Below are positions 1 through 32,049 of a stretch of 32,640 nt of DNA, one piece after another (within the stretch, counting starts at the first letter, position 1; the number at the start of each line of letters is the position of its first letter). Position numbers and translations under genes: made by a program. The notes under the pieces are model-generated. The model was not told where the DNA came from and ran no database searches. It was given only the letters and a program-made list of their open reading frames with translations. This DNA comes from a virus, in IMG/VR virus record IMGVR_UViG_3300006802_000299, positions 1 to 32,640 of that record, one strand, 5' to 3'.

Positions 1-854
1 CCACTTGACCCAGAAGCGCCAGATGTACCACTGGAGCCGCTTGTTCCGCTAGTCCCATCTGTGCCAGAAGTTCCTGACGTTCCAGAGGTACCCGAGGTTC
101 CACTAGTTCCACTTGATCCAGAGGTGCCGCTAGAACCGTTTCCTGCACCACCACTCGTTCCACTAGAACCACTGGTTCCTGACGTGCCACTAGAGCCTGA
201 TGTTCCATCGGTCCCGCTAGTTCCTGAAGTGCCAGACGTTCCCGATGTTCCTGACGATCCAGAAGTCCCACTAGTTCCGCTTGTACCAGAGGTGCCGCTA
301 GAACCGTTTCCTGCACCACCACTCGTTCCACTAGAACCACTGGTTCCTGACGAGCCGCTTGTGCCAGACGTGCCATCAGTTCCACTAGTGCCAGACGTGC
401 CAGATGTTCCAGATGTTCCAGATGAGCCACTCGTTCCAGATGAACCACCAGCACCAGTTGTTCCACTTGTCCCAGCAGTTCCGCTTGAACCCGAAGTTCC
501 ACTTGTTCCAGAAGATCCATCTACGCCAAGAGTTCCGCTAGTTCCACTGGAACCGCTTGTACCTGAAGTTCCTGATGTGCCACTTGATCCATTGTTACCA
601 CTGGTTCCGCTAGATCCATTTGAACCACTTGTACCGCTCGTGCCTGACGAACCATCAATGCCACTTGTACCAGATGATCCACTAGTTCCGCTTGTACCAG
701 ATGATCCAGAAGTTCCTGAAGAACCTCCACCGCCACCAGCACCGCTAGTTCCAGATGTACCGCTGCTACCGCTTGAACCGCTTGAACCGCTAGTTCCTGA
801 CGAACCAGACGTTCCACTAAGCGAGGGTAGACGTTCTTGAAGGATCTTTCTCAT
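1..854 (-). CDS. Collagen-like Gly-X-Y repeat virion or fibre protein, 3' end outside window
   Basis: The minus strand is open from an ATG at 854 to the left edge, giving 284 visible residues; the C-terminus is missing. After a short leader (MRKILQERLPSLS) almost the whole protein is G-X-Y triplets, mainly GTS and GSS, with rare GID, GNN, GVD, GAG and a short poly-Gly patch. Such repeats in phages usually form trimeric collagen-like fibre shafts; a role as surface fibre is inferred. The start overlaps the stop of the upstream gene as TAATG, so translation is probably coupled. The codon-level repeat makes the opposite strand open too (Pro/Val-rich), but that is a shadow. The product's tip, which would tell its function, lies outside the window. 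Confidence 0.8.
   Translation of the reverse strand, partial: MRKILQERLPSLSGTSGSSGTSGSSGSSGSSGTSGTSGAGGGGGSSGTSGSSGTSGTSGSSGTSGIDGSSGTSGTSGSNGSSGTSGNNGSSGTSGTSGTSGSSGTSGTLGVDGSSGTSGTSGSSGTAGTSGTTGAGGSSGTSGSSGTSGTSGTSGTSGTDGTSGTSGSSGTSGSSGTSGGAGNGSSGTSGTSGTSGTSGSSGTSGTSGTSGTSGTDGTSGSSGTSGTSGSSGTSGGAGNGSSGTSGSSGTSGTSGTSGTSGTSGTDGTSGTSGSSGTSGASGSS
118..352 (-). repeat. 168-bp-offset segmental duplication inside the Gly-Thr-Ser gene
   Basis: Positions 118-184 and 286-352 are identical over 67 bp, with an offset of 168 bp (56 codons). The flanking 60 bases are clearly related but diverged. The offset is a multiple of three and keeps the Gly-X-Y phase. This fits recent internal expansion of the fibre shaft by recombination or slippage. 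Confidence 0.8.
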
Positions 855-2265: not shown

Positions 2266-3447
2266 TTAGACAATGATACCACTGATGGCACGTCCGTCAA
2301 GACAGACACGGCCTTCTTCAAGGTGACCCCAGAAGCCAGCCTTATCCACACGGGACAAGTTGAACTGGTCATCAGGAAGCACTTGGAAGGTAGCTCCAGT
2401 GTCCTCAGTCATGTCGTGACCGCCACGAGCGACTGGACGGATGAAAGCTCCACGGGTGTTGTCAACTGCGACACAGACCTCGTCTGTTGCGCTGCTGAAC
2501 GCGGAACCGCCAGTACCATCAAGCTTCGCCCAAGAGGTTGCGCCTGCGTAGGTGTCGAACAAGTCGTTGTACTTCTTGTTGATACCGAATTCAATCAACT
2601 TAACAATGTTGACTCCGTAGATGTTCTGCATTCCAGCGTTGCGGAAGATTTCCTCACGCATTGACTCTGGAAGAGGGACGCTTGAGTCAGCATAACCGGC
2701 AGTGTCGGTACCGCTAAGCACACCGGCCTTAGTGTTCAATGGGTTGAACGCGAACGCTCTGATCTGACCAACAATCTCTGGGGAGACGTAAAGGTCAGTT
2801 GGACCATTGGAGAACACCTCGGTTGGGGTGTTACCGGAGTAAGACTCGTTAAGACGGTCGTGACGAGTCATAAGATCGTTAAGATCGTTGATGACGAAAG
2901 AGTTTGCGGTGTTCGCACGAATAGCGTGACGAAGGGCGGAACCATTCTTAGGAGTGGTAGATGCCTCGCCAAGTGCCTTCATGATAACGGACCATGCATT
3001 CTTTTCCTGCTCGATCAAAACCTCGTTGATCATACGCTCGACTGCGCCAGAGATAACGTCAAGACGGCTCTTACGCGCATAACGCTTGTTGAAGGAAACT
3101 GCTGAATCAAGAGTGTAAGTCATAAACTTCATCTCTTGGTTACCAGTTACCTGTGAGGTAGGAAGACCGCCAGCCATGTGCTGTGACCAAACAGTGACGT
3201 AGCCGTCAAGCTCGCCGTAGTAAAGATCAAGCGGGTAGCTTGGTGAATCATCCTCGTCGTATGGAGCGTCTTGGTAAATCGCAGAAGCGGTACCCTTGGT
3301 CATCAAAACCTTCTGAATGACTGGGCCAAGAAACGCTGCCAACGCCTGCTGTGCGTCCATAGAAACCTGAGTGTTCTTGGAGCCGATAGCGTTAACCAGA
3401 GCGATCTGCTGTGGTGTTTCCTTTAATTTAAAAGTTGCTTTCTTCAT
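2266..3447 (-). CDS. Major capsid protein (HK97-fold type)
   Basis: A 393-residue protein in the expected place after protease/scaffold and decoration genes, with a strong AGGAG ribosome site and a dedicated terminator, as for an abundant virion protein. The segment around NKRYARKSRLDVIS (about residues 118-132) followed by a long amphipathic helix is typical of tailed-phage capsid proteins. A possible T4-type prohead cleavage site (L-K-E) lies at residues 8-10. The next 45 residues (TPQQIALVNAIG, then LGPVIQKVL) reappear in a separate small protein at 31512-31763. The C-terminus ends RAISGIIV. Family assignment rests on context and general resemblance. Confidence 0.82.
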   Translation of the reverse strand: MKKATFKLKETPQQIALVNAIGSKNTQVSMDAQQALAAFLGPVIQKVLMTKGTASAIYQDAPYDEDDSPSYPLDLYYGELDGYVTVWSQHMAGGLPTSQVTGNQEMKFMTYTLDSAVSFNKRYARKSRLDVISGAVERMINEVLIEQEKNAWSVIMKALGEASTTPKNGSALRHAIRANTANSFVINDLNDLMTRHDRLNESYSGNTPTEVFSNGPTDLYVSPEIVGQIRAFAFNPLNTKAGVLSGTDTAGYADSSVPLPESMREEIFRNAGMQNIYGVNIVKLIEFGINKKYNDLFDTYAGATSWAKLDGTGGSAFSSATDEVCVAVDNTRGAFIRPVARGGHDMTEDTGATFQVLPDDQFNLSRVDKAGFWGHLEEGRVCLDGRAISGIIV

Positions 3448-3481: not shown

Positions 3482-4063
3482 TTATCTGATGTCAAGGCTG
3501 ATAAGCACCCATCCGTTGCTGTCCTTGGAGCCAAGGGCGCGTCCAACAACAGTTGCGTCGTCATCAAGGTCGCCGTTGTGAGCGTTGGCCGCGATGGACT
3601 CGATAACACCGTCTGGGCCAGCGTAAAGTACGTCACCAGCGGTAACCGCACCAGTAATTCCTGAGTAAAGGAACCTACCACGGGTAACCAAAGGCATCGC
3701 CTGTCCAGAGATAACTGCTTCAATTTCCTGTTGCTTGCGAGGGTTGAACTTCAACTGCTCGCCGTTCTCGTCGACTTCCTTAAGATCGAAAAGGGTCATT
3801 CCTACGACCGCATCACCAGTTCCAGCAGCAGTAACCTTAGCGGTAACACCATATCTCTGAGAGACAGTGTTGCCATAGGTTGCGCCCGGGGAACCAAGCA
3901 TTTCGGTAGGGTCTTGGTCAGCAGTCCAGCCAGAGCCGACAAGCTTAACAAGAAGTCCCTTGTTCTGAGGAATAGATCCGCCACCATCTAAAGTGTAGAA
4001 TGGAATTACGTCTTTAGGATCAACGTCCTGTAATGGTCTAAGTGTTTGATTTTCTCCTGCCAT
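3482..4063 (-). CDS. Putative head decoration or capsid-stabilising protein
   Basis: A 193-residue protein between the protease/scaffold and capsid genes, the usual place of decoration proteins. It has a Gly-rich beta pattern (VTRGRFLYSGITGAVTAGD, LYAGPDGVIE, VVGRALG) like the SH3/beta-tulip decoration family, in which a parameter such as 'AGDVLYAGPDG' is common. The ribosome site AATAGGAGAAT is the same as that before the capsid gene, pointing to matched high expression. It could instead be a head-completion protein. Function is inferred from position and fold impression. Confidence 0.62.
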   Translation of the reverse strand: MAGENQTLRPLQDVDPKDVIPFYTLDGGGSIPQNKGLLVKLVGSGWTADQDPTEMLGSPGATYGNTVSQRYGVTAKVTAAGTGDAVVGMTLFDLKEVDENGEQLKFNPRKQQEIEAVISGQAMPLVTRGRFLYSGITGAVTAGDVLYAGPDGVIESIAANAHNGDLDDDATVVGRALGSKDSNGWVLISLDIR

Positions 4064-4102: not shown

Positions 4103-4690
4103 TTAAGCAAGTGTCAAGTCTTCTTCCTTAAGTGCGTCAGCCCATTTATTCTTAGGCTTAGACGCCTCAGAAGAGTTAGGAATCTTAACGTCCTTCTTTT
4201 CGCCGTTGTCGATTGCGTCTTCAACAGTCTTGGAAGCGTCAGACTCTTTCTTATCTTCAGCTTTTTTGGTGAAAGGCTTCATGAATACAGCCATACCTTC
4301 CTGCCATGCGGTGTAATCTTCGTCGGACTCAACAGACTGAAGCTGCTTAGCAAGAACTTTACGAATATCATCGTTAAGGTCGTAGGTTGCGTCAAGAGAA
4401 GCCATTCTCTCGTTGAATTTCTCTGCCTTCTCAGCAGCAGCCTTTTCTTCCTGAAGGGATGCAAGGTTGTTCTTAAGATCCTCGATCTCTTTCTTAGCTG
4501 CTTCAAAGTCGGTGTTCATTTTCTCAAAGTTTGCTTCAGCTACCTCAAGAGCTTCCTTAGCAGCCTTCTTCTCGGCCTCGTACTTATCGGAGGCTTCCTG
4601 AATCTGTTCGCTAAGATAATCCCTCACGGCAGAAGCTTGAAGCTCCTTCATGGAATCTTGGTTAATCTGATCTAAGCTAGTGATTTTCAT
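4103..4690 (-). other. Possible nested scaffold reading frame (internal start)
   Basis: Codon 376 of the protease-scaffold gene is ATG (4690-4688) and begins MKITSLDQINQDSMKELQ, just after the low-complexity linker. AGAAG and AAGAA purine stretches precede it. Initiation here would give a 195-residue scaffold without protease, as with lambda C/Nu3. The sequence allows this but does not prove it. Confidence 0.4.
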
Positions 4691-5815
4691 AATTTTATTC
4701 TTGCTTCTAGTTTCAATTACATCGGTTTTATTAGAATGTGAAATATTTTTTTCTGAATTGTTGATTTTTTTATTTTGAGCTTCCTCAATGAGACTGTTAC
4801 GGAACTCATCAAGGGTCATTTTTTGTTCCACAAGATACTGATTAAGACATTCCAAAATCTGCTTAGGAGTGAAGTAGGAAGCTTCGCCTTCTTCCTTTTT
4901 AAAAGGGTTTTCCTTCTTCTTCTCGCCGTTCTTCTTGTCTTTATCGTTCTTGTCCTTCTTATCCTTGCTATCCTTGCTATCCTTGTCTTTCTTTCCATCA
5001 TTGGATTCGTCATGATTTTTGTATTGTGCTTCAGCCTCTTCTTTTGCGTCATCATCCTGATTCAATTCTTGATTAGTCTTAGGAGTTGCGATACCCAAAA
5101 CGTCAGCGGCAGGAGTTCCGGTCAAGCCAATACCCAATGGGACAATGTCTCCAACGGGCTTCCTGAACAGAATTTCTCCTTCTTCGCCCTGTGCCTCACC
5201 AAACTTATAGTTCTCACCAAGTCCAGCAATGACTTCAGGGTTGCGATAGATTGTGCAGTCTTCAAGGTTTTTGGATTCTCCATTTGCCTTTGCTAGTTCG
5301 AATTCGGCAAAGCCCAACTCCCAACTAGCGGAAATGCTACCAAATCTCATAGAGGTAGGATCGGAGCTATCTTCAATAGTATCGGCCAATCTCTGATCAG
5401 CAATACGCCAGATAACACCCCCAAGAACAACATTGAAAGGCTTGTTTGAACCCTTCACTTCGTCTTCGGTCAATGGCTTATCAGTTCCGAATTCGCTGAA
5501 TGCAGAACTAAGAATAACACCAATAATCTTGGAACGATCATGTTCGATATTGATTGGTTTGTTTACAAAATTTTGGTGACAAGCAACAGTTTCCTCAGTT
5601 CCTAAAATATCACCATTAGCATTTGCTCTGTTGGCGACGAAGGCATTGAAAGCCACAGGAAGGATGTCGATGTTCGCCTCAGTATCTAGATCAGGAACAA
5701 ATTTTCCAACATCTAAAAGGGACGCAATTGCAAGATATTTATCCTTCTCCTTAGAAACAATAGGCTTCACAGGAGAACTGCCGCTCATATAGTATGGGAA
5801 CTTCTCAATCTTCAT
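4103..5815 (-). CDS. Prohead protease fused to assembly scaffold
   Basis: A 570-residue protein. The N-terminal ~230 residues look like a prohead maturation protease: the putative catalytic His is in NIEHDRSKIIGVIL (about residues 93-106) and the putative Ser is in MRFGSISASWEL (about 155-166). A highly charged Lys/Asp/Ser linker follows (about 270-310). Residues 376-570 are a coiled-coil, Glu/Lys/Ala-rich scaffold ending in LKEEDLTLA. Protease followed by scaffold in one reading frame is known in other phages. An internal ATG at 4690 with a methionine-led scaffold start may yield scaffold alone. A TTACACTTAA site lies just before the start. The protein sits immediately upstream of the decoration and capsid genes. 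Confidence 0.78.
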   Translation of the reverse strand: MKIEKFPYYMSGSSPVKPIVSKEKDKYLAIASLLDVGKFVPDLDTEANIDILPVAFNAFVANRANANGDILGTEETVACHQNFVNKPINIEHDRSKIIGVILSSAFSEFGTDKPLTEDEVKGSNKPFNVVLGGVIWRIADQRLADTIEDSSDPTSMRFGSISASWELGFAEFELAKANGESKNLEDCTIYRNPEVIAGLGENYKFGEAQGEEGEILFRKPVGDIVPLGIGLTGTPAADVLGIATPKTNQELNQDDDAKEEAEAQYKNHDESNDGKKDKDSKDSKDKKDKNDKDKKNGEKKKENPFKKEEGEASYFTPKQILECLNQYLVEQKMTLDEFRNSLIEEAQNKKINNSEKNISHSNKTDVIETRSKNKIMKITSLDQINQDSMKELQASAVRDYLSEQIQEASDKYEAEKKAAKEALEVAEANFEKMNTDFEAAKKEIEDLKNNLASLQEEKAAAEKAEKFNERMASLDATYDLNDDIRKVLAKQLQSVESDEDYTAWQEGMAVFMKPFTKKAEDKKESDASKTVEDAIDNGEKKDVKIPNSSEASKPKNKWADALKEEDLTLA

Positions 5816-6599: not shown

Positions 6600-9290
6600 T
6601 TAGTTAATGTATATTAATTCGTTGGATAGTAATAGAGCCTGTGCTAGCTGCTCTTTGGCCGTTAATTTACCCTTTGATGAAGAGCTAATAAATTTGTCAG
6701 CCAAACGCTTTTCTGTAGGAGAAGGTTCCCTTTGATACACGGTCTGATACATATCCTCCACAGTAGAAGAATTGGCCGCTAATTTCTTAGCTTGATTCAC
6801 GATCATTGTATTGTTTAAAAGATACAACGCCTGTTGAGGAATAGTCGTAACGAACCTCTTTCCGTTGGTCATATTAGGATCAGCAAAGTCAAAGTTGACA
6901 AATAACTCAGGAACCCTACTCCTATTGATAACTGCATAAACAGTTCTAATGGGAGCATTAGGGTTTCTGCTGAGATCAATAGATCCAGTGATCTTGTCAG
7001 AATTCAAGCTGCCCGTCAGAGCAAGGATAGTGTCTCTAAGTGATTCAAATTCTAAACGCTGAATATTTTGTCTGTGAAATAGCCTATTACCAGAATCTTT
7101 TGCTTCGTCCTGTGGCTTAGGAAGACTAGACTGCATGTAGGTATGAGAAGTCATAATCAAATGATGAAGAGTTTTAAGACTCCATTTGTTATCTTTCAAA
7201 TATACAGCAAGCCAATCAATCAACTCAGTATGTTGAGGAGTGTTGCTCGCTAAACCAACATCGTCAGGAGTATCAACAAATCCAGCGCCGAAGTGATGCT
7301 GCCAAACTCGGTTCACAATTACGCGAGGAGCGATAGAGCTATTAATGATTGACTCTGCTAAATGCGCTCGGCCAGATGTGGTTTTTGGATATAAGGTTTT
7401 CTTCGGGTCCAAGAATTCGATAAACCTACGAGGTACAGCGTCACCCAACTGGCGAGGGTTACCTCCTTTAAATAAACGTGTATCGCGAGCAGAGCGATCA
7501 ACGACAAGCATAGGTCTTTCCGGTGCGTGTGGGTGAGTCCATTCAAGGGTAATAAATTTTCCTGTTTCAGTTCGAAGACCATTTTCGTAACGAGTTCTTT
7601 CTCTGTTGTTCAACGCACGATAGAAGGTATTAATATCACCAACATCAATAGGACCGCCCTTTCGAGTAAGCACTTCGATTGCTTTTGCGTATAGAGCGTT
7701 ACGAGGTTTATATTTAGGATTTCTTTTCTTGCCTTTAAGATAATCTTCATAGGCTGCACCAAATACATTTCCATACCATTGCGCTACCTGAATCATATTT
7801 GCTGGTTTGCGCTGTTGTAAGCTGCGAACCACGCCAAAGTCATAGGTCTTTTTGTCTTGAGACATTTTGTGAAGAACAAGATTCCAGCCTTGTGGATTTG
7901 TTTTGTTTTTCAAAAGCTCCTGATAAGGACGCCAGAATGAATCGCCCCTGTTCATTTCTCTGTTCCAGTTAGAAAGCATACGGCCCATAAGCTGGGAAGA
8001 TTTTCCTACTTTATTGGTTCTGGAATATTGTCCACGGATATTAGCCTCAATTTCTCTGTAATACATGTGCGCATGAGGAATGTATTCTTTTGATCCCTTT
8101 CTGAAATCATCATACCACTCAGCGTAGTTCTTCAGCTTGTAAGCTTCGATACCCTCGATTCGGGCTGTTCTTTGTTTTACGTAGTCGTCGTTTGGTTTAC
8201 CAGAAGAAACTGGACGCTGGTAATCGGTAGGCTCAGTGATAGAATTGAAGATACCGTGGAGAGCATAGTAATCTTCCTGACTGACGGGATCAAACTTGTG
8301 ATCGTGACAGCGGGCGCAGGATACAGTCAAACCAAGGAAAGCTTTGGTAACAGCATCAATACGATCATCAATAACATTATTAGCGTCCCTATCTCTACGA
8401 CCTAAAGTAATGAAACCTAATGCGTTCAGCCTTTCGTCATTGTATTTGTAAAGGTCAGCGGCCAACTGCTCACGAATGAATTCGTCATAAGGTTTGTCGT
8501 CGTTAAATGCCTCAATGACATAGTTTCGATACGTCCATGAGTAAGTGAATCGAGGATCATCACGCCTATTGTTAAATCCTCCCTTGTAATCTGAGTAGCG
8601 AGCAACGTCAAGCCAGTAGCGACCCCAACGCTCACCATAACGAGGAGAAGCAAGAAGTTTATTGATCAAATTGCTATATGCCTGTGAATCTTTGCTATTA
8701 ACAAAAGCTTCAACGTCTTCGTGTGTAGGTGGAAGTCCAGTTAAATCATAATATGCACGACGAATAAGAGTTCTTTTGTCGGCCACTGGAGAAAGCTTTA
8801 ATCCAGCATCTTCTAATTTATGAGAAATAAAATTGTCGATTGGATTGTCAAAATTCTCCATGTCGTCGTAAGTTGGAACGATAGGTTTTTCTAGCGACTG
8901 GAATGACCAGTGAGTTTGGGTGCCTGTACCCCACTCTCTACCGCCAACCTTCTTGGACATTGTTTGAGGAATTTTAGCTCCTTGTTTTAACCAAGAGAAG
9001 ATGACAGAGGCATCGCGGCCACTCATTTTCTTTTTTGGAGGCATCTCTTTATTAATAATGACTTCCATTAAAGTCGTATTTTCTGGCGAGTTACCCTGCG
9101 TAATACCGCTTAATCCGTCATAAGTGTCGAGTAAGAGGTCGCCTTTTACGCGAGGCGCATCTGCGCTATGGCACTCGTAGCAATTTCTTACAAGCGCGGG
9201 TCTAACCTCTTTTTCGAAGAAGTCTGATGTCTGTGAAAAAGCCCCCAATGGAATGAGGGTCACTAATGCAAAGATTAGAAATTTTTTCAT
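6600..9290 (-). CDS. Planctomycete-type cytochrome with DUF1549 and DUF1553 (PSCyt1/PSD1 protein)
   Basis: A secreted 896-residue protein. The signal peptide is MKKFLIFALVTLIPLGAFSQ. Residues 37-41 are CYECH, a CxxCH haem-binding motif in a PSCyt1-like domain; a second CxxCH (CARCH) lies at about 325-329 inside DUF1549, which also shows LTGLPPT and RYGERWGRYWLDVARYSD. The C-terminal third matches DUF1553 (SGRAHLAE, NRVWQHHFG, RLEFESLRD). The ATG at 9290 is chosen over an upstream in-frame one because it begins the signal peptide and follows the DUF1501 stop by one base. In bacteria such genes pair with DUF1501 genes, mostly in Planctomycetota and Verrucomicrobiota, often near sulfatases. The biochemical role is unknown. 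It is very unusual inside a phage structural cluster. Confidence 0.92.
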   Translation of the reverse strand: MKKFLIFALVTLIPLGAFSQTSDFFEKEVRPALVRNCYECHSADAPRVKGDLLLDTYDGLSGITQGNSPENTTLMEVIINKEMPPKKKMSGRDASVIFSWLKQGAKIPQTMSKKVGGREWGTGTQTHWSFQSLEKPIVPTYDDMENFDNPIDNFISHKLEDAGLKLSPVADKRTLIRRAYYDLTGLPPTHEDVEAFVNSKDSQAYSNLINKLLASPRYGERWGRYWLDVARYSDYKGGFNNRRDDPRFTYSWTYRNYVIEAFNDDKPYDEFIREQLAADLYKYNDERLNALGFITLGRRDRDANNVIDDRIDAVTKAFLGLTVSCARCHDHKFDPVSQEDYYALHGIFNSITEPTDYQRPVSSGKPNDDYVKQRTARIEGIEAYKLKNYAEWYDDFRKGSKEYIPHAHMYYREIEANIRGQYSRTNKVGKSSQLMGRMLSNWNREMNRGDSFWRPYQELLKNKTNPQGWNLVLHKMSQDKKTYDFGVVRSLQQRKPANMIQVAQWYGNVFGAAYEDYLKGKKRNPKYKPRNALYAKAIEVLTRKGGPIDVGDINTFYRALNNRERTRYENGLRTETGKFITLEWTHPHAPERPMLVVDRSARDTRLFKGGNPRQLGDAVPRRFIEFLDPKKTLYPKTTSGRAHLAESIINSSIAPRVIVNRVWQHHFGAGFVDTPDDVGLASNTPQHTELIDWLAVYLKDNKWSLKTLHHLIMTSHTYMQSSLPKPQDEAKDSGNRLFHRQNIQRLEFESLRDTILALTGSLNSDKITGSIDLSRNPNAPIRTVYAVINRSRVPELFVNFDFADPNMTNGKRFVTTIPQQALYLLNNTMIVNQAKKLAANSSTVEDMYQTVYQREPSPTEKRLADKFISSSSKGKLTAKEQLAQALLLSNELIYIN

Positions 9291-9291
9291 G

Positions 9292-10662
9292 TTATGAAAT
9301 AATGTCTTTATGAACTTCACCAAATACGTCAGTCAATCTGAACGGACGACCGTTATAAGTATAAGTCAATTTTTTGTGATCGAAACCAAGAGCATGAAGG
9401 ATTGTAGCATGAAGGTCATGAACGTTCATTTTACCACTAACCACATCAATTCCAAGATCGTCAGTAGAACCATACGCCATTCCACCTTTAACACCACCGC
9501 CGATCATAAGAGTGGAGAATCCGCTGTTCTGGTGACCGCGACCGAAGTTGTTTCTAGAGATTTGATCGCGACGGGCAGTTCTGCCAAATTCACCACCAAC
9601 AATAATCAAAGTCTCTTCAAGCATTCCGCGCTGTTTAAGATCAGCAATCAATTGAGCTAATGGCTTGTCGATGTCTCTTGCTCTATTTGTAACATTATCT
9701 TTTACATTGCTGTGGTGGTCCCAAGAACCATGCCAACACTGCACAAATCGAACGCCGCGTTCTGCAAGGCGACGAGCAATGAGCATCTGCTTGCCCTGTG
9801 CGGTATTTCCATACGCATCGCGGGTAGCCTTGTCTTCTTTGTTTACATCGAATGCGTCAGTAGCCTCGATCTGCATGTTATATGCAAGCTCAAAGGATTT
9901 AATGCGATTTTCAAGATGTTCGTCTTTGTTGTTACCAAGAGAATGAATTGTATTTTGCTTACGCAAGAAATCAAGCATTCCGCGCTGACCATCTAAAGAA
10001 TCAAATCCTTTAATGTTTGTAATCATGTCGCTAACATTACGCAACTGACTATTAATTGGCGTTCCCTGATAAAGCCCCGGCAAGAAGGATGCCTGATAGC
10101 TTTGTGGGCGAGGGTTTCCGCCGGGACGCAATGAAATGAACGCTGGAAGATTCTCATTGTCGGTTCCTAATCCGTAAGTAACCCATGAACCAACAGAAGG
10201 TCGTGAGAATTTAAAATTACCAGTATTCATAAGAATAGTAGCAAGATTATGATCTGGAACATCGGTAGTCATACCACGAAGGATACAAATATCGTCAGCG
10301 TGTTTTTGAAGCTCTGGGAAAACTTCACTGATTTCAAGTCCAGACTTGCCGCTCTTATTAAATTCGAATGGTGATCCATTAGCAACACCACGAGATAGCT
10401 CTTTACCGTCTAGTTTCTTTAGTGTTGGTTTTGGATCGAAAGTATCAATATGAGAAGGTCCACCCTGCAAGAAAATATGGATGACACGCTTGGCCTTTCC
10501 AAAATTTTCTGCTCCATATACTGCTTGTGGTCCTAGCAACGAAGCTAACCCTAATGCTCCCACGCCCATTGCTGTGTTATTCAGGAACTCCCTTTTAGTT
10601 ATGTTGTGAGGGATACCTGCTCGGTTTTGGCAATTTACAAGTGTTTGATCAAAGTTCTGCAT
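9292..10662 (-). CDS. DUF1501 family exported protein (alkaline-phosphatase-like superfamily)
   Basis: A 456-residue protein. Residues 23-26 (KREF) followed by a hydrophobic stretch to about 50 resemble a Tat-type export signal, though the usual RR is KR here. Family hallmarks are LQGGPSHIDTFDPKP near residue 70, a catalytic-like segment GGEFGRTARR, and GRGHQN followed by IGGGVKGG; many relatives have GRDH at that point. It probably binds metal in an active site like the alkaline-phosphatase superfamily, but its substrate is unknown. It is translationally linked to the PSCyt1 partner (TAA, one base, ATG). A TTACACAGTT site precedes it, so phage control is likely. Confidence 0.92.
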   Translation of the reverse strand: MQNFDQTLVNCQNRAGIPHNITKREFLNNTAMGVGALGLASLLGPQAVYGAENFGKAKRVIHIFLQGGPSHIDTFDPKPTLKKLDGKELSRGVANGSPFEFNKSGKSGLEISEVFPELQKHADDICILRGMTTDVPDHNLATILMNTGNFKFSRPSVGSWVTYGLGTDNENLPAFISLRPGGNPRPQSYQASFLPGLYQGTPINSQLRNVSDMITNIKGFDSLDGQRGMLDFLRKQNTIHSLGNNKDEHLENRIKSFELAYNMQIEATDAFDVNKEDKATRDAYGNTAQGKQMLIARRLAERGVRFVQCWHGSWDHHSNVKDNVTNRARDIDKPLAQLIADLKQRGMLEETLIIVGGEFGRTARRDQISRNNFGRGHQNSGFSTLMIGGGVKGGMAYGSTDDLGIDVVSGKMNVHDLHATILHALGFDHKKLTYTYNGRPFRLTDVFGEVHKDIIS

Positions 10663-17327: not shown

Positions 17328-19616
<2,289 letters not shown>

Positions 19617-23828: not shown

Positions 23829-24515
23829 TTAATAAATATCCACTTCCCCGTCCTTAATCAGCTTCTTGGCTTTGGCGACTATTGACTTCGTAATGTTCTT
23901 TATTTGCTTATAACCGGGGCTACGATTTTTTTCGTTTGTTTTGTACCCTAATTGATGAGCGACCTCTATCTCAGACATACCCTTAATAAAAAGACCCTCA
24001 TAAACAGTCCATTCAACAGGTTTGAGGGTTTCTTTTAATTTTTTATTCAATTCTAAAACTGAATCAATAGTCTCCATTGATTCTGAAAATTGATTACCTA
24101 CCTCATATGAGTGATGCTCCATAGAGACTGGCAATTTTACGTCATAAGCAGGCTTCTTGCGCTGCTGCCAAATTTTAAATAAGGGGCAGGAGTCACATTG
24201 CTTTTCATACAGTTCGCACCCATTGTCGGGTAAGGAGGCTGAACATTTAAGACAAGGACGGGCGTAATTAGAGAAGTTGTTTCTGACGATGTTGGAAATC
24301 TGACGAGTAATGATTTTATTAATCCAAGGTTCAATAGGTTTGGCGGGATCATACTGCTCCCATTTCCTATGAATGTGGATTCTAATCATCTGAGAGACAT
24401 CATCGAAATCCATCCAAGTTATGGACGTAAGAGTCCACTTCGGTCGCCTTTTAGCGATCTCATTGTCAATGATGTCTATGTATTCTTCGAATTTTGGCTT
24501 ATCAGGCTGACTCAT
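23829..24515 (-). CDS. Phage RNA polymerase sigma factor with Cys-rich insert
   Basis: 228 residues. Residues 34-80 (WMDFDDVSQMIRIHIHRKW, then PWINKIITRQISNIVRNNF) match sigma region 2, which binds the -10 element and core polymerase. Residues about 163-220 (EWTVYEGLFIKGMSEIEVAH, then KQIKNITKSIVAKAKKLIK) match a region-4-like helix-turn-helix. Between them lie five cysteines (88, 91, 100, 107, 110; CLKC...CDSC) that look like a zinc-binding insert. It probably directs host RNA polymerase to late phage promoters in the manner of T4 gp55. The TTACACGTAA sites ahead of late genes are natural candidate targets. It overlaps its neighbour's stop by 4 nt (ATGA). Confidence 0.75.
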   Translation of the reverse strand: MSQPDKPKFEEYIDIIDNEIAKRRPKWTLTSITWMDFDDVSQMIRIHIHRKWEQYDPAKPIEPWINKIITRQISNIVRNNFSNYARPCLKCSASLPDNGCELYEKQCDSCPLFKIWQQRKKPAYDVKLPVSMEHHSYEVGNQFSESMETIDSVLELNKKLKETLKPVEWTVYEGLFIKGMSEIEVAHQLGYKTNEKNRSPGYKQIKNITKSIVAKAKKLIKDGEVDIY

Positions 24516-25103: not shown

Positions 25104-25967
25104 ACCCGGTGCCTTGGGTGATGTCTTCTGCCTTCTGACCTTACAGCAAGCCATACGTAAAAAATACGGGGCTTTGATCTGTACACCGCTTCCTCCACCC
25201 TACGTGTCCTAGAAGGCTTTATCAAGGACCACAACCTCGTGGATAACCTGTTTGATTCTGACGTTCTCTCTCCAAACTACGAACTGCGCCCCTCTGAGCA
25301 ATGGTATAAAAATAAACCAATTAAATTAATAGCATATCCATTTAATGAAGGTTATCCATTTAATAGTGGGATGAAAAAGCATCTTAGACAATACATGGAA
25401 AAAGAGATAAATATTAACAGTGAATATGACTTATTACTACAGAGTAAACCGATATGCTTGGAGACATCAGAAGATTACATCACAATCCAAACAAAAGCTG
25501 GATGGAGTAGATACAAAGAATGGTCGTCAGATCAATGGGAAGAATTAATAAAAATAATTAAACAAGAGACGACTCTAAAAGTGCATCAAATCGGAGCGGC
25601 CGCTGAGCCAGTATTGGAAGGTGTGGATTTTAAAGTAATGAGTGGATTTGATGATTGTATTCATCATCAGTGTTATGCTAAGGCTCATGTTGGTATTGAT
25701 TCTATATTTAACCATACGACCGATGTGATCTGGAGTCACAAGGCATGTAAGACGCCCGCAGTCATCATGTTTGGGTCAACTTGTCCCACCGGATTCGGCT
25801 ATGAAGGAAATGAGAATATTTTTCTTGACATTTCGTGCCAACCATGCTATAAAGAGAATGTCGAGATTGTAAATGCAGTAAATCGTACGCCATGCTGGAA
25901 AGATCATGAGTGTATGAAACAGATCGCGCCCGAAATGGTGTGGGAGAGATTAAAAAAGATATTATAA
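25069..25967 (+). CDS. GT9 (ADP-heptose:LPS heptosyltransferase-family) glycosyltransferase, frameshifted
   Basis: The gene reads in two frames. A TTG at 25069 opens LNDPKNNIAIIRPGALGDV, the classic N-terminal nucleotide-fold motif of GT9. The frame then ends at 25212. The continuation GFDLYTASSTLRVLEG, and the rest to 25967, lies in the -1 frame, open from 25161. The C-terminal half fits the family: TIQTKAGWSRYKEW, KTPAVIMFGSTCPTG and the closing Cys-rich segment with CWKDHECM. A missing base in the A6 (25159-25164) or G4 (25168-25171) run would explain the break; programmed -1 slippage, mutation or assembly error all fit. It would transfer a heptose-like sugar. A GTG at 25239 could start a shortened product. 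Confidence 0.72.
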
Positions 25968-26192
25968 ATGAGTGATCTTTGGAAGACAGGTTTTGACAGT
26001 AAGGTATTTCGCGATTTGCATAAATACCTGCAAGCACAGCAACAGACCGACGCTAAAGAACCAAACGAGTACACTGACCCGTTTAATCTTTTTCAGAGAG
26101 AATACGACGCACAGTTCGGTATCTCGACTTCCAAACCAGAGCCTACCCCAATGGAACTTACACGGTCATACAAAGAAGCCGTAAAAGATTAA
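25968..26192 (+). CDS. Small protein with C-terminal tag (74 aa)
   Basis: The start codon follows the GT9 stop directly (TAAATG). The body is polar, with a helix (FDSKVFRDLHKYLQAQQQ) and a Pro-rich linker. The C-terminus ends MELTRSYKEAVKD. This L-T-R-x-Y-K-E pattern recurs at the end of many small proteins nearby and may be a shared sorting or docking tag. No domain was recognised. Confidence 0.6.
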   Translation: MSDLWKTGFDSKVFRDLHKYLQAQQQTDAKEPNEYTDPFNLFQREYDAQFGISTSKPEPTPMELTRSYKEAVKD

Positions 26193-26248: not shown

Positions 26249-26542
26249 ATGGGAGAGTCGTCGCTAAGATATTTCTCGGACAAGGACTTTAATGTGGAAG
26301 ACCTAAACAATCAATTAACCGAAGTTTCTAAGGAAACTGGAGGAAATTCTCCAAAAGTCCTTAAAATGTATCGTTGGCAGTTTGAGCAAATGAAGTTTTG
26401 GTATGCCGGGCATAAAACCTTGGTTCCAAATGCCGCCGAACCAAAAGACGTAATGATTTTTGGCATGAGGCTAGTTATCATAGAAGATTGGGAAGAGGCA
26501 ATAAAACTCACAAAAAAATATAAAAAAAATATAATAAATTAA
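26249..26542 (+). CDS. Small protein with C-terminal tag (97 aa)
   Basis: Starts MGESSLRYFSDKDFNVEDLN after a purine-rich ribosome site (GAAGGGGAAGGAAAGAAAG). The middle has KMYRWQFEQMKFWYAGH and VMIFGMRLVIIEDW, suggesting a small alpha/beta fold with an exposed aromatic patch. It ends IKLTKKYKKNIIN, a copy of the tag seen in neighbours. Function unknown. The ORF sits between two AT-only gaps. Confidence 0.6.
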   Translation: MGESSLRYFSDKDFNVEDLNNQLTEVSKETGGNSPKVLKMYRWQFEQMKFWYAGHKTLVPNAAEPKDVMIFGMRLVIIEDWEEAIKLTKKYKKNIIN

Positions 26543-27029: not shown

Positions 27030-27323
27030 ATGAAAGAGAAGATAAAAGACAAAAGAACGAAGGCTCAGAAGCTTGCAGACAAAAAGTTGAGCAAGAAGTT
27101 CATTCGCGTCCGCAATCTTCTTGAGTCTCGTGGAAAAAAGCTGGCTGTTGATTCAGATAATAAAGAAAAAGAACGCAAAAGGTCATTTGATCGAATTTTA
27201 AAGGACATTGAGGAAATAAAAACAAAAGAAGAGCGCGAAGAATATAAAAAGAATAAAACTCTTTTGAAACAATGGAAACATACAGCAAAATGGATGAAAG
27301 GAGAAAATGACAGTCAATCATAA
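27030..27323 (+). CDS. Small, strongly basic helical protein (97 aa)
   Basis: Begins MKEKIKDKRTKAQKLADKKL and is packed with Lys, Arg and Glu. It probably forms a charged coiled coil or binds nucleic acid. The C-terminal part has TLLKQWKHTAKWMKG, a possible diverged form of the nearby tag with Trp in place of Tyr. It overlaps the next gene by 17 bases. No family was recognised. Confidence 0.5.
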   Translation: MKEKIKDKRTKAQKLADKKLSKKFIRVRNLLESRGKKLAVDSDNKEKERKRSFDRILKDIEEIKTKEEREEYKKNKTLLKQWKHTAKWMKGENDSQS

Positions 27324-27681
27324 TCACACATGCACCATGTCGGGCGCGGCGATACCCGTTGTTCAAAAAGGAGCGTTTTATTACAATCAAGCAAATCAAG
27401 TTGGTGCTAACGTTATGGTTACTGGCATTTACAGTCCATCGAATTTTATTATTGCAATACAGAATGTCACCTTTAAAGAATTTAAAAGAGCGCTCAAACA
27501 TCTCTGCGAAGAACACCGTCTTACCATCATTGACAAGCAAAAATACATTGATAAAGTTCTTTATGGAAAGGAAAAGGAAATCAATATTTATAATATTGAG
27601 TATCACATTACTGATATCAAAGATGTTCGAAAAAAGGCCAAATCAAAAATTGTCGAAAGTTACAAGCTATCAATCAAATGA
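27307..27681 (+). CDS. Unknown protein with C-terminal tag (124 aa)
   Basis: Begins MTVNHNHTCTMSGAAIPVVQ and has a His/Cys-rich start that could bind metal. Middle stretches (VTGIYSPSNFIIAIQNVTF, YDKVLYG-like turn, INIYNIEYHITD) suggest a small alpha/beta domain. It ends SKIVESYKLSIK, a copy of the recurring tag pattern. It overlaps its neighbours at both ends (17 bases before, ATGA after), so it belongs to one operon. Function unknown. Confidence 0.55.
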   Translation: MTVNHNHTCTMSGAAIPVVQKGAFYYNQANQVGANVMVTGIYSPSNFIIAIQNVTFKEFKRALKHLCEEHRLTIIDKQKYIDKVLYGKEKEINIYNIEYHITDIKDVRKKAKSKIVESYKLSIK

Positions 27682-27728: not shown

Positions 27729-28864
27729 TGAAAAAAATTTGCTTAACAATGATAGTCAAGAACGAAGCTCACTGCATTGAGCGTTGTCTTGATAGCGTCA
27801 AGGATTTAGTTGATTATTATTGGATTGACGATACGGGGTCAACTGATAACACAATAGAAGTTATAAATAAGTGGTTCGAGAAGAACAAAATTGAAGACTT
27901 TGTTGTTCATGCAACTGGTTGGGCTGGTTTTGCAGAAAGTCGCACGGCTTGTCTTGTGTGTGCCAAGTCAGCATGGAAAGAGGCGGATTACCTTTTGATG
28001 ATTGACGCTGACGAAATCATTGTATGGAAAGATAAGAAAAGTTTACAAAACGTCCAGCAGTTAAAAGACAGCTTGACTTGCGACCTCTACGATATTCGTA
28101 CGGTGATGGCGGGATCAGTTTATGTTCGTCCACAACTCACGAAAGCCAACAAGGGTTTTGTCTATGAAGGTGTAGTTCATGAATTTTTGAGCGACAAGCA
28201 CGACAAAATTGAAACAAGAGGAATCATCGAGGAATTCATCAATAAACCAATTCAAGATTCCGCCCGCAACAAAGACCCTGAGAAATTCAAGAAAGACGCA
28301 GAAGTTTTAGCCAAGGCACTAGAAAATGAGAATGATCGTTTTCTTAGAACACGCTATCGTTTTTATCTGGCTCAATGCTTGAGGGACAGTGGCGACATGG
28401 CGGGCGCATTATACAATTACCAAAAGAGAGCGGAGATGGGAGGTTGGGAAGAGGAAGTTTATTGGAGTCTTTATCAAGCGGCACGAATCAAGGAGCATTT
28501 GGGTTGCGAACACGAGGATGTTATTCAGACATACTTGAAGGCTTACGAAAGCGCACCCCATCGATCAGAAGCTTTACACGGCGCAGCTAAGTGCGCAAGA
28601 GAGAATAAAATGTATCAGCAAGCATATATTTATTCCAAATTCGCCTTGCCCATCCAAATGCCCCAGAACGCCCTCTTCACAGACTCCCATGTATATTCAT
28701 ACGCACTACTAGACGAGTATTCTATTGCAGCTTTCTATACTGGACGCCCAAAGGAAAGCTTAGAGGCTTGTAAGATTTTATTGAAAGAAAAGAAGTTCCC
28801 GCCCGAGCAGGAAGAAAGAATCAAAAGAAACATGCAATTTGCAGTGGAGGCAATGAATGAATGA
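27728..28864 (+). CDS. GT2-family glycosyltransferase with helical repeat tail
   Basis: 378 residues. The GT-A fold is clear: N-terminal TMIVKNEA (7-14), DDTGSTDNT (34-42) and the metal/nucleotide-sugar DxD as DADE (93-96). The C-terminal ~150 residues are helix pairs with TPR-like spacing (RTRYRFYLAQCLRDSGDMAG, then YWSLYQAARIKEH), as in several GT2 proteins with SPW/TPR tails. It probably adds a sugar to phage or host surface, DNA or protein; the acceptor is unknown. It lies downstream of a GT9 gene, suggesting a short glycosylation set. The stop overlaps the next start. Confidence 0.85.
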   Translation: MKKICLTMIVKNEAHCIERCLDSVKDLVDYYWIDDTGSTDNTIEVINKWFEKNKIEDFVVHATGWAGFAESRTACLVCAKSAWKEADYLLMIDADEIIVWKDKKSLQNVQQLKDSLTCDLYDIRTVMAGSVYVRPQLTKANKGFVYEGVVHEFLSDKHDKIETRGIIEEFINKPIQDSARNKDPEKFKKDAEVLAKALENENDRFLRTRYRFYLAQCLRDSGDMAGALYNYQKRAEMGGWEEEVYWSLYQAARIKEHLGCEHEDVIQTYLKAYESAPHRSEALHGAAKCARENKMYQQAYIYSKFALPIQMPQNALFTDSHVYSYALLDEYSIAAFYTGRPKESLEACKILLKEKKFPPEQEERIKRNMQFAVEAMNE

Positions 28865-29036
28865 TGATTTGTCTGCAAAATTTAAAGTCAAATTAGATGA
28901 TACTTCCGATACGTATACAGAAGTAAGATTTAAATTCTGCGACGAAACAGGACAAATGACATGGGAAATTTTAAACAAAGATGAAGAACCCAAAGCCCTC
29001 GTCAAAAGATATAAACAATATATCAGAAGCAGTTGA
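28857..29036 (+). CDS. Small protein with C-terminal tag (59 aa)
   Basis: The ATG at 28857 overlaps the end of GT2. The protein begins MNDDLSAKFKVKLDDTSDT and has a beta-hairpin look (YTEVRFKFCDET, MTWEILNKDE). It ends KALVKRYKQYIRSS, one of the cleanest copies of the recurring L-V-K-x-Y-K tag. A small beta domain plus tag is all that can be said. Confidence 0.55.
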   Translation: MNDDLSAKFKVKLDDTSDTYTEVRFKFCDETGQMTWEILNKDEEPKALVKRYKQYIRSS

Positions 29037-29040
29037 CAAC

Positions 29041-29172
29041 ATGGCTGACGAATTACAAGTAGCTATAGAAGCGAAAGCATGGAGAACTGTTTTTGCTGGT
29101 TTGTTGAATAGAAATTCGAAAGAGCTAGTTAGATTATACAGGGAGTCTCTCAATGACAGAAAAGGAATATAA
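29041..29172 (+). CDS. Small tagged protein (43 aa)
   Basis: ATG 29041 follows the previous stop by four bases. An in-frame ATG at 28981 would overlap that gene by 56 bases and is less likely. The whole protein is a short helix plus ELVRLYRESLNDRKGI; residues LLNRNSKELVRLYRESL align with LLLNPKELTRKYKESL at the end of the leftward gene at 31319. It overlaps the next gene by 20 bases. Function unknown. Confidence 0.5.
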   Translation: MADELQVAIEAKAWRTVFAGLLNRNSKELVRLYRESLNDRKGI

Positions 29173-29684: not shown

Positions 29685-30062
29685 ATGCACAAAGGCAACT
29701 TTATTCAAAAAGAGTTAAAATACGCCATCCTTACTGACGTAGCAAGTAAATATTGGTGTTACGCTATTTCTTACGTTGACCCTGATAATGCTGATGACAA
29801 TATTGCTGATATTATTGAGCAATACAGCATGATTGATTATCGAAATACCTCATTTTTTCGCAAAATAATCCAAAAGAAGGATCATGAATTCCTTTTTAAA
29901 GAATTAAAAATACACAACGGGATATTTGCTGAACCAAAACGCTGTTACGCCGTCCCTCTTTCTATTAATGAATACGAAGCTTGTAAAATATTTTTGGGTG
30001 TTGCTCTTAAAAGCGATATAATAGAGTACGTTCAAAAATACAAGACATGCTTGAAGAAATAG
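29685..30062 (+). CDS. Unknown protein with C-terminal tag (125 aa)
   Basis: Begins MHKGNFIQKELKYAILTDVA, with a mixed alpha/beta pattern and many aromatics (KYWCYAISYVDPD). It ends DIIEYVQKYKTCLKK, an extended version of the recurring tag. It overlaps the following gene by 16 bases. No motif allows a function. Confidence 0.55.
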   Translation: MHKGNFIQKELKYAILTDVASKYWCYAISYVDPDNADDNIADIIEQYSMIDYRNTSFFRKIIQKKDHEFLFKELKIHNGIFAEPKRCYAVPLSINEYEACKIFLGVALKSDIIEYVQKYKTCLKK

Positions 30063-30541
30063 AATTTAATAAACTGCCTACAGATGAAAAGATCAACATC
30101 TGTAACAAAACTCAGCGCGTTCTCAAAACACACTTCCCAGATAGCGAATTTACCTTGCGCTCCAACAATCTGGAAAAGGGGCTGGAGTTCTATCGTAAAC
30201 TAATTGACGATTTCAAAGGGTGCTGTATTGTCGATAGGAACGCAGTTGTCTTCTACAAGATCAGCGACATCACAGACTTCTACGATAAAAATGGAGAATT
30301 CAGGAAACTAAGAGAAGCTTCTCACAATCCTTATGGTAATTGTATGTTTGTTGATTTTCTTGTTGCTGATTTTAATGAGGATAATGTTGAGGATTTAAAA
30401 GAATTTTTCTTTCGTCCTTGGCGCGTTGAATACTATATGATGCTAAGACGCGGCGAAGTCATATTAAAGACCCGCCGCGACCTAGAAGTTTTAGCTAAAA
30501 GAGTTTCTACTTACCAGCTTATAAGTTCTCTAGCCTCTTAA
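30047..30541 (+). CDS. Unknown phage protein (164 aa)
   Basis: The N-terminal half has helix followed by strand elements, then a well-defined alpha/beta stretch (CIVDRNAVVFYKISDITDFY, NCMFVDFLVADFNEDN). Its C-terminus (LEVLAKRVSTYQLISSLAS) lacks the tag of its neighbours. It converges with the PhoH gene; the two overlap by 23 bases. It may be a small enzyme or a phage regulator, but no family was recognised. Confidence 0.55.
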   Translation: MLEEIEFNKLPTDEKINICNKTQRVLKTHFPDSEFTLRSNNLEKGLEFYRKLIDDFKGCCIVDRNAVVFYKISDITDFYDKNGEFRKLREASHNPYGNCMFVDFLVADFNEDNVEDLKEFFFRPWRVEYYMMLRRGEVILKTRRDLEVLAKRVSTYQLISSLAS

Positions 30542-31292
30542 CGATATATTTGACCAATTCGGACCTCATAATATCTTCCTCGTCAAATTGGAACGTGTAG
30601 ATGCCGTGATCCAATGCTTCCCTATCGTGTTCGAATAGATTGTATAATTTTTGGAATCCACCAGCCTTGCCATTCAAGTCGGTCTGTTTAGGATCAGCGC
30701 AAATAAAACAACGGGTGAAATGACCCAATCTAGTAATAGTTGTGACTAATTCTTTTTCTGTGCTATTTTGTGCTTCGTCTAGGATGATAGCTTTTGCATT
30801 CCAGTTAAGCCCTCTGATATAGTTGATAGGCATACAATGGATTCTAGAGTCATCTATGAGTTTTTTCTGGTCGCCTGATGATAATAGCTCATTCATTTTA
30901 TCCCAGAATGGAGCGTTATAGACGGCCATCTTTTCTTCTGCGGAACCGGGCAAGAAACCAATTCCAGCATCAGACGATTCAACTGCGGATCTTAAATAAC
31001 AAATGTCGGAAATTTTTCTTTGATTAAGTAGATGAAGGCTTACGTAGGATGCAAGTAAAGTCTTTGCTGTACCGGCAGGCCCGTTTACAAACATGACGCG
31101 CATGTTTTTTTGCATTGCAAGATCAATGAAACGCTCTTGATTTAGTGTCCAATCAAGGTCGCGGATGTTGAGATCGCATTTGATCTTGTCGCGCTGCCAA
31201 ACGTATGGAGACTGGTCCTTGTTTTCATTATTAACCACTTCAGGCTTTTTGGCCTTAGTGCCGCCACGAGGAGATGATTTCTTCGCAGGCAT
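30519..31292 (-). CDS. phoH: PhoH-like ATPase
   Basis: 257 residues, a common size for phage PhoH. It has Walker A GPAGTAKT (71-78), LRSAVESSDAGIGFLPGS-type middle motif, and Walker B ILDEAQN (about 170-176), followed by ITRLG and DPKQTD, all family hallmarks. A basic Lys-rich N-terminus (MPAKKSSPRGG) is extra. PhoH-like proteins are common in marine phages and act as nucleotide-binding, possibly RNA-linked ATPases; their role in phage is not settled. The gene is last in a leftward set whose start has a TTACACGTCA site, so it might have its own promoter. Confidence 0.88.
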   Translation of the reverse strand: MPAKKSSPRGGTKAKKPEVVNNENKDQSPYVWQRDKIKCDLNIRDLDWTLNQERFIDLAMQKNMRVMFVNGPAGTAKTLLASYVSLHLLNQRKISDICYLRSAVESSDAGIGFLPGSAEEKMAVYNAPFWDKMNELLSSGDQKKLIDDSRIHCMPINYIRGLNWNAKAIILDEAQNSTEKELVTTITRLGHFTRCFICADPKQTDLNGKAGGFQKLYNLFEHDREALDHGIYTFQFDEEDIMRSELVKYIVKRLENL

Positions 31293-31318: not shown

Positions 31319-31531
31319 TTATTGGGAAGGCTTTTCGAGCGACTCTTTATATTTGCGCGTTAGTTCTTTAGGGTTTAGCAGCAATTGAACTAAAAATTTA
31401 GCCATTTCAACTTGCTTCTGACTAGTTAAACTAGAAAAGATATAAGGGGCTGTCAAAATACCAGCATCATCCAGTATCTTGGTCGCTTTAGCAGATAAAG
31501 GGTACCCTATATTAGCTTTTGCATTTGCCAT
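31319..31531 (-). CDS. Small helical protein with C-terminal tag (70 aa)
   Basis: The ATG at 31531 is preferred over a TTG at 31570; it overlaps the previous gene by 20 bases. The protein begins MANAKANIGYPLSAKATKIL and has a helix pair (IFSSLTSQKQVEMAKFLVQL). It ends NPKELTRKYKESLEKPSQ, the fullest copy of the recurring tag, shared with the rightward gene at 29041. It lies with its tagged neighbour and PhoH in one leftward operon. Function unknown. Confidence 0.55.
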   Translation of the reverse strand: MANAKANIGYPLSAKATKILDDAGILTAPYIFSSLTSQKQVEMAKFLVQLLLNPKELTRKYKESLEKPSQ

Positions 31532-31763
31532 ACATTTTTTTGTATTTTTTAGCCAGATCGCGCCGATCAAGCATCAAAAGGTCGTCAATCTTTCTATCGA
31601 TTTCAGGAGAAAACATAATGTCAGCGGCCGTTTGATTGCCTAAAACTTTTGATATAACAGGACCAAGACAATTAGCAAAAGATTTTTGGGCACTTTGGGC
31701 TGAAACGCCTACCTTGCCAATAGCCTTAACTAGCTCTATTTGTTCTTTGGTACTAAGATTCAT
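31512..31763 (-). CDS. Small protein resembling the capsid N-terminal arm, with C-terminal tag (83 aa)
   Basis: Residues 4-42 (STKEQIELVKAIGKVGVSAQ and on to LGPVISKVLG) line up with residues 10-50 of the major capsid protein (ETPQQIALVNAIG...LGPVIQKVL), with matches clustered in I-x-LV-x-AIG, AQ, A-x-LGPVI-x-KVL. The remainder is new: a helix and the tag RRDLAKKYKKMYG. It lies in the leftward PhoH group, away from the capsid gene. It may be a partial duplicate that competes with, or steers, the capsid arm. The homology is judged by eye. Confidence 0.65.
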   Translation of the reverse strand: MNLSTKEQIELVKAIGKVGVSAQSAQKSFANCLGPVISKVLGNQTAADIMFSPEIDRKIDDLLMLDRRDLAKKYKKMYGKCKS

Positions 31764-32049
31764 CTTTTTTTCGACGATAGTAAGTCCGCTTGTATTCTTT
31801 GGTTTTGTCCAAATTCTGCTGCTGCCACTCGACTACCTGCTTGGTAATTCGCGCTTTATTCCTTTGGTAATGTTCCGCCGCTGCTTTCTTTTCGCATATT
31901 TTACACGCGTAACGATAGCCGTCTTTATTTTTGGCATTCTTAGAAAACTTTTCAAATGGTAATAGTTGAAGACATTTAGTACACTGTTTTACACTAACGT
32001 CTTCATTCAAACTAGAGAATTCAATAGAATTAGATGCTTCTTCGTTCAT
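31753..32049 (-). CDS. Zinc-binding phage protein like the endonuclease VII N-terminal region (98 aa)
   Basis: Residues 23-26 (CTKC) and 46-49 (CKIC) give a CXXC...CXXC site in the pattern CTKC-LQLLPFEKFSKN, DGYRYACKIC, then a long basic helix AEHYQRNKARITK. This pattern is typical of a zinc-ribbon seen at the N-terminus of phage recombination endonuclease VII-type or HNH-linked proteins, but no nuclease half follows. It overlaps the next gene by 11 bases. It probably binds nucleic acid. The upstream AT-rich region has TATAATAA but no certain promoter. Confidence 0.7.
   Translation of the reverse strand: MNEEASNSIEFSSLNEDVSVKQCTKCLQLLPFEKFSKNAKNKDGYRYACKICEKKAAAEHYQRNKARITKQVVEWQQQNLDKTKEYKRTYYRRKKDES

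Follow-up and report, generated by a model that had tools for sequence, protein, structure and literature searches.

The IMG/VR virus record IMGVR_UViG_3300006802_000299, which stems from an uncultured tailed phage, was analysed over its whole length of 32,640 nucleotides (32.6 kilobases, kb), called the window below. An open reading frame (ORF) at 31512-31763 on the minus strand, named ORF 31512 after its lower coordinate like the other ORFs discussed here, encodes a protein of 83 residues that resembles the N-terminus of the capsid protein encoded by the same record and ends in a C-terminal motif, the tag, that recurs in other small ORFs.

A stand-alone copy of the capsid N-terminus

ORF 31512 is part of a minus-strand run, in which an endonuclease-VII-like ORF is followed by ORF 31512, a second tagged ORF and PhoH. 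Both ends of ORF 31512 overlap neighbouring ORFs, and its translational coupling with the overlapping endonuclease-VII-like ORF is likely.

31512-31763 (-), stand-alone capsid N-terminus ORF, 83 residues, ATG start; copy of the capsid N-terminal hairpin at residues 1-56, C-terminal tag region at ~62-83
31753-32049 (-), endonuclease-VII-like ORF, upstream of ORF 31512 and overlapping its start; homolog in the related locus L254
31319-31531 (-), tagged accessory ORF, ends ELTRKYKESLEKPSQ; its start overlaps the end of ORF 31512 by 20 nucleotides
30519-31292 (-), PhoH, after 31319-31531 in the minus-strand run
2266-3447 (-), major capsid protein with predicted HK97 fold, 393 residues, N-terminal hairpin at ~1-56

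A search of the record with the 83-residue protein matched ORF 2266-3447 (-) at residues ~10-56 (expectation value, E, 6.3e-6; 42% identity), and in six other related records the capsid was its sole match (E 3.8e-8 to 4.3e-6). A profile of the capsid N-terminus, built from 47 distinct sequences and run against 47,664 six-frame fragments, found ORF 31512 at E 3e-10 with 40.8 bits. It was the only non-capsid match below E 0.05, the next one having E 0.076. The real arm scored 42.3 bits, compared with 12.8 bits for the best of 5,000 shuffles. A first-pass annotation of this DNA had described the protein as a copy of the capsid N-terminal arm and had suggested a profile-profile comparison, which gave an hhalign probability of 97.3%. 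By these measures, the homology of ORF 31512 to the N-terminal helical hairpin of the capsid protein is confirmed at the sequence level.

In an alignment of 34 rows the start codons of ORF 31512 and the capsid genes coincide, while ORF 31512 is without three residues (K-L-K in the capsids). ORF 31512 therefore copies the true N-terminus of the capsid protein. It retains 10 of the 12 columns that are invariant across 33 capsids, and the two lost ones are the deleted L-K, so all 10 alignable invariant columns are kept. Retention in the three less conserved classes of columns is 4/11, 10/24 and, in the most variable class, 2/14. Since the invariant columns were kept and most of the variable ones lost, the same surface seems to be constrained in ORF 31512 and in the capsid arm. 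Identity amounts to 22/55 with the capsid of the same record and to up to 29/58 with capsids of other clades.

The capsid profile is matched by ORF 31512 at positions 6-55 only; the P-domain with its spine helix, the A-domain and the E-loop are not reached. Among the 889 six-frame fragments of the window, the profile found (E < 1) only the capsid itself, ORF 31512 and, weakly, ORF 28981 (E 0.021). That ORF 31512 is what remains of a second complete capsid gene was considered and rejected, as no other capsid-like stretch lies nearby.

Structure prediction, likewise proposed by the first-pass annotation, yielded similar helices in both proteins, namely 6-16 and 20-41 in ORF 31512, followed by a long C-terminal helix at 53-81, and 12-21 and 26-47 in the matching region of the capsid model. 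The ORF 31512 model is of low confidence (predicted local distance difference test, pLDDT, 65) and had capsid arms in its input alignment, so that the agreement of the helices is weak evidence. The capsid N-terminus alignment also scores some designed helical-repeat proteins of the PDB (capsid residues ~14-36), which suggests that these residues form a HEAT-like hairpin. Two HEAT-like helical hairpins of separate origin could resemble each other by convergence. Nevertheless, no single stretch passes in the designed-repeat scores, and the match of ORF 31512 begins at the start codon, includes GPVIxKVL and extends into the turn after it, with 40.8 bits within one genome and 5,000 shuffles reaching at most 12.8 bits. 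We regard convergence as extremely improbable.

The capsid protein and the proposed protease site

According to its AlphaFold2 model (pLDDT 75; predicted template modelling score, pTM, 0.73) ORF 2266-3447 is an HK97-fold capsid protein. At E ≤ 0.001 the model matched 333 PDB chains (best 2e-9), with phage capsids and encapsulins at the top. Searches with the sequence gave nothing above threshold in Pfam, PHROG and NCBIfam, no match in the PDB and nothing among annotated phages. The lineage is large, with at least 445 confirmed relatives.

A possible prohead-protease site (L-K-E) had been noted just before the capsid arm, which would make the arm a removable domain. At this position 9 of the 33 aligned capsids carry E and 24 carry N (L-K-N), and L-K-E was rejected as a conserved protease site. 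Its L-K is deleted in ORF 31512, which starts at the capsid's own N-terminus and not after a cleavage site. The idea of a removable arm is unsupported because L-K-E is not conserved.

Distribution among related phages

The 100 related viral records searched, all of them fragments without a rating of 90% completeness or more and 29 of them at least 50 kb long, contained no stand-alone arm (0/100). Each gave a single match to the arm alignment, always in a full capsid (frames of 351-402 residues). A second scan, which covered 80 of 170 confirmed relatives (the earlier capsid search had covered 80 of at least 445), returned capsids only in its 80 loci, three of them cut at contig ends. Viral contigs searched with the 83-residue protein and genome contigs searched with the arm alignment gave no relatives, and none closer than L253 and L254 was found. 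The nearest relative, L254, whose copy of a neighbouring gene is 65% identical, also has PhoH and the endonuclease-VII-like gene, but in place of ORF 31512 two unrelated small ORFs lie between them. These comparisons show ORF 31512 to be an accessory, patchily distributed gene.

Its occurrence in one record only and its absence from L254 would also fit a by-product without present function, that is, an old partial duplication of the start of the capsid gene that was joined to the tag module. We consider such an origin unlikely: the ORF is intact and lies in an overlapping operon, and its similarity to the capsid was lost mainly in variable columns and in none of the 10 alignable invariant ones.

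A C-terminal tag shared by small ORFs

The tag, approximately LxxKYKxxL and located close before the stop, occurs in nine small ORFs of the window. Besides ORF 31512 and ORF 31319 these are:

25968-26192 (+), tagged accessory ORF, holds FQREYDAQF (terminase-like, tentative)
26249-26542 (+), tagged accessory ORF, ends KLTKKYKKNIIN
27307-27681 (+), tagged accessory ORF, residues 10-35 resemble 3482-4063 (moderate)
28857-29036 (+), tagged accessory ORF, ends ALVKRYKQYIRSS
28981-29172 (+), tagged accessory ORF, tentative likeness of residues 11-47 to the capsid spine helix
29153-29668 (+), tagged accessory ORF, ends KIIKQYKKCIKKV
29685-30062 (+), tagged accessory ORF, ends EYVQKYKTCLKK; homolog in L254

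The motif was found in 10 of the 19 genes between 24.5 and 32.0 kb, whereas 20,000 shuffles gave 0.59 on average and never more than 5. The tenth match is looser; it lies in the conserved ORF 24512 and is probably due to chance. With nine ORFs carrying the tag, far above the shuffles, the earlier observation that the 83-residue protein ends in a shared tag holds. Pairwise comparison of C-termini in the window gave 16 similar pairs versus 1-3 in shuffles.

The conserved genes flanking the tagged ORFs are adjacent in the related records G002 and G006, and on this comparison of gene order the tagged ORFs are lineage-specific inserts. Three tagged inserts occur in L254, of which one has W in place of Y and one is a 50% identical homolog of ORF 29685, tag included. 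In the set of related loci first compared, the ten inserts other than ORF 31512 had no homolog.

Two trivial origins of the tag were rejected. It is not a repeat at the DNA level, as the codons differ, and it is not a by-product of overlapping genes, as ORFs 25968, 26249, 27307 and 31319 end 26-215 nucleotides before the next start. ORF 29153 ends 16 nucleotides before the next start. ORFs 28857 and 28981 overlap by 56 nucleotides in different frames, and ORF 28981 may start downstream at MADELQ.

Diverse small bodies, a single terminal tag and rapid turnover, as seen in the nine ORFs of the window and the three of L254, are also expected of head cargo, the main rival explanation. The tag would then load small proteins into the prohead for the next host, in the style of the internal proteins of phage T4, and the hairpin of ORF 31512 would be an extra docking module. 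The capsid targeting sequence of the T4 internal proteins is N-terminal, whereas the motif shared by the nine tagged ORFs is C-terminal, near the stop. Furthermore, shared C-termini are not in excess in G003 and G006 (at or near chance), G001 has 3 pairs versus 0-2 in shuffles, G004 is slightly above its shuffles (116 versus 69-101), and the excess in G002 (8 versus 1-2) is largely due to paralogs, its top entries having a different tail. Like the set in the window, the T4 internal proteins are varied small proteins that have a single terminal signal in common (PMC3012670), but the available portion of that source describes no capsid-derived body among them. A cargo function appears somewhat unlikely to us.

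Similarity of other tagged ORFs to head and packaging proteins

Profiles of 25 genes of the window were run on the 11 inserts. One of these profiles represents the neighbour of the capsid gene:

3482-4063 (-), conserved 193-residue protein adjoining the capsid gene; may be a decoration protein, judging from its position only

ORF 27307 matched this protein at E 6.6e-7 per test, and none of 82,500 shuffled tests reached 1e-6 or below; the match is 16-29 residues long and has an hhalign probability of 53%. It is moderately supported that ORF 27307 copies a piece of the capsid-adjacent protein. ORF 28981 in its full form matched the capsid spine helix at E 2.3e-5 per test, which was equalled by 11 of 82,500 shuffled tests. 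When the ORF is started at Met 20 (the MADELQ form), the score falls to E 0.009 and the significance is gone. The stretch that carries the match also overlaps the tag of ORF 28857 in another frame, and the putative copy of the spine helix is tentative. As a control, 384 real small ORFs from relatives were used, 15 of them orthologs; 1 of the 369 others passes the threshold of ORF 28981, compared with 3 of the 11 inserts. ORF 25968 contains FQREYDAQF, identical in 8 of 9 positions to a conserved motif of the large terminase. Identity at this level also arose in 2 of 150 shuffled sets, and among the 369 real control ORFs one shows it as well; ORF 25968 is tentatively taken to hold a piece of the large terminase.

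Phage sensors read proteins such as capsid and terminase. ORF 31512 might be a decoy for such a host sensor, the copy binding the sensor without triggering it. The accessory location and the turnover of the tagged ORFs agree with this, as do the spine-helix, capsid-neighbour and terminase pieces that some of them may hold. Nevertheless, a search with defence models gave nothing that counts (one match at E 0.01, for ORF 27307), and three of the four head or packaging similarities are moderate or tentative. A decoy function is very doubtful.

Other genes of the window

The structural gene run includes, at 6600-10662 (-), a PSCyt1/PSCyt2 (DUF1549)/PSD1 (DUF1553) protein and a DUF1501 protein. Such proteins are typical of Planctomycetes and relatives, and homologs are present in the related loci L004 and L008; no relative emerged when bacterial genomes were scanned with the DUF1501 protein. 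A sigma-70-like protein is encoded at 23829-24515 (-), and among its weak NCBIfam matches is the Rhodopirellula/Verrucomicrobium sigma family, a possible hint to the host. Low-complexity GTSGSSGTSG repeats make up a protein at 3-854 (-), cut at the record end, and collagen repeats occur in the protein encoded at 17328-19616 (-). The heptosyltransferase-like ORF at 25239-25967 (+) is truncated at its N-terminus relative to its homolog in L254 (293 residues, L254:1439-2320); a frame break or an assembly error within 25104-25967 (+) is likely.

Likeness of the tag to the putative scaffold tail and a possible role

The tag also loosely recalls the C-terminus encoded by a further putative head gene:

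4103-5815 (-), putative prohead scaffold, by position only, without database match above threshold; member of a family with a conserved C-terminal motif

In this family the C-terminal motif reads, for example, SLFNKYKQAFDYDGFVVG (..KYKxAF..), and Y[KR]xx followed by a hydrophobic residue is present within the last 25 residues of 60 of 118 distinct scaffold tails. A softened scaffold-tail profile placed 8 of the 11 inserts in the top 16 of 384 controls, with ORFs 31512 and 31319 ranking within the top 2, and 1 of the 384 control C-termini scored as high as the ORF 31512 tail.

Contacts between coat N-arms and scaffold tails are known from other phages. The last 16 scaffold residues of 80alpha form a helix and hook beside the N-arm helix of the coat protein, and CpmB, a competitor encoded by the satellite SaPI1, binds likewise with its own last 16 residues, according to the accessible text of PMC5644958. 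In P22 the coat N-arm is bound by the scaffold C-terminus, as given in the accessible text of PMC9965877. The first-pass annotation had suggested that a separate arm-like protein could set capsid assembly, compete with the capsid protein or carry tagged cargo to the prohead; because such contacts are known and the tag loosely resembles a scaffold tail, the latter two ideas gain some weight.

We propose that ORF 31512 encodes an accessory protein of the coat-scaffold interface that alters or blocks capsid assembly, which we consider quite possible while falling short of probable. The protein would act within the prohead assembly pathway: its free hairpin would occupy the normal binding partner of the coat N-arm, most probably the tail of the scaffold or an adjacent coat subunit, and its tail would bring it to proheads. 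Capsid assembly would thereby be altered or blocked; this would more probably affect relatives infecting the same cell than be something the phage requires for its own assembly. Competition is favoured over an essential role because the gene is absent from relatives and the arm is at least as close to the capsids of other clades. If the tag is a scaffold-type tail, one small chain would hold both sides of the coat-scaffold contact.

Several observations weigh against this proposal. The tags were not recognised by a strict log-odds profile built from scaffold tails, of which 104 had been found and those of the own subclade were omitted; 0 of 11 inserts scored at least 4. The window's own scaffold tail and its subclade have KW instead of KY, and on a profile of the own-subclade tails the ORF 31512 tail ranks 133 of 384. 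As the nine tags are alike, matching them to the scaffold counts as a single comparison and not as nine, and the scaffold identity of 4103-5815 is itself putative, given by position only. Furthermore, the similarity of the arm to capsids of other clades could reflect retained ancestral states, and the arm model is of low confidence (pLDDT 65). Because the strict profile recognises none of the tags and the subclade rank is 133, the resemblance between tag and scaffold tail is suggestive only. The function proposed for ORF 31512 from these comparisons is plausible in outline, though unproven.

Known systems share single aspects with ORF 31512. CpmB of SaPI1 is likewise small and accessory, and it has a C-terminal helix and hook that copy the coat-binding tail of the scaffold and act on the coat N-arm (PMC5644958). 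In the accessible text, however, CpmB has a dimerisation domain, is encoded by a satellite and is described without coat sequence, whereas the body of ORF 31512 is a coat N-terminus and the scaffold likeness of its tail is unproven. The record studied here is no satellite by its gene content, as genes for a capsid protein, a terminase, a putative portal and a putative scaffold are all present in it. Ccm of SaPIbov5 is a separate capsid homolog that redirects assembly; according to the text available it occupies pentameric capsomers (PMC8569155), whereas ORF 31512 comprises in its 83 residues only the N-terminal hairpin without a shell core. The restriction factor p22 of Ty1 is a separate capsid piece that blocks particle assembly, as stated in the available part of PMC4599808, but ORF 31512 is a diverged separate gene that copies the N-terminus, and Ty1 is an unrelated element. 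As far as CpmB, Ccm and Ty1 p22 are described in these excerpts, none combines a free coat N-terminus with a shared tag. A search of the literature on small phage proteins with a conserved C-terminal motif found nothing on the subject, a result that applies to that search. The observation made on ORF 31512 is real and unusual.

The proposal for ORF 31512 could be extended to the other inserts. The phage would then own a kit of tagged mimics, each combining a conserved virion or packaging piece (capsid N-terminus, capsid spine helix, capsid-neighbour segment or terminase motif) with a scaffold-like tail, that jam or steer the head assembly of competitors. We hold such a kit to be quite unlikely.

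Capsid-derived inhibitors are already known in retrotransposons (Ty1 p22), and capsid-steering proteins in phage satellites (CpmB, Ccm). If the role proposed here for ORF 31512 at the coat-scaffold interface is true, it would be a compact and testable case of a non-satellite phage that employs parts of its own head as tools, and a C-terminal signal for prohead targeting would be indicated. Even with the mechanism wrong, the window documents a large HK97-capsid lineage that is unmatched in the family libraries searched and that has a rapidly changing set of tagged genes.
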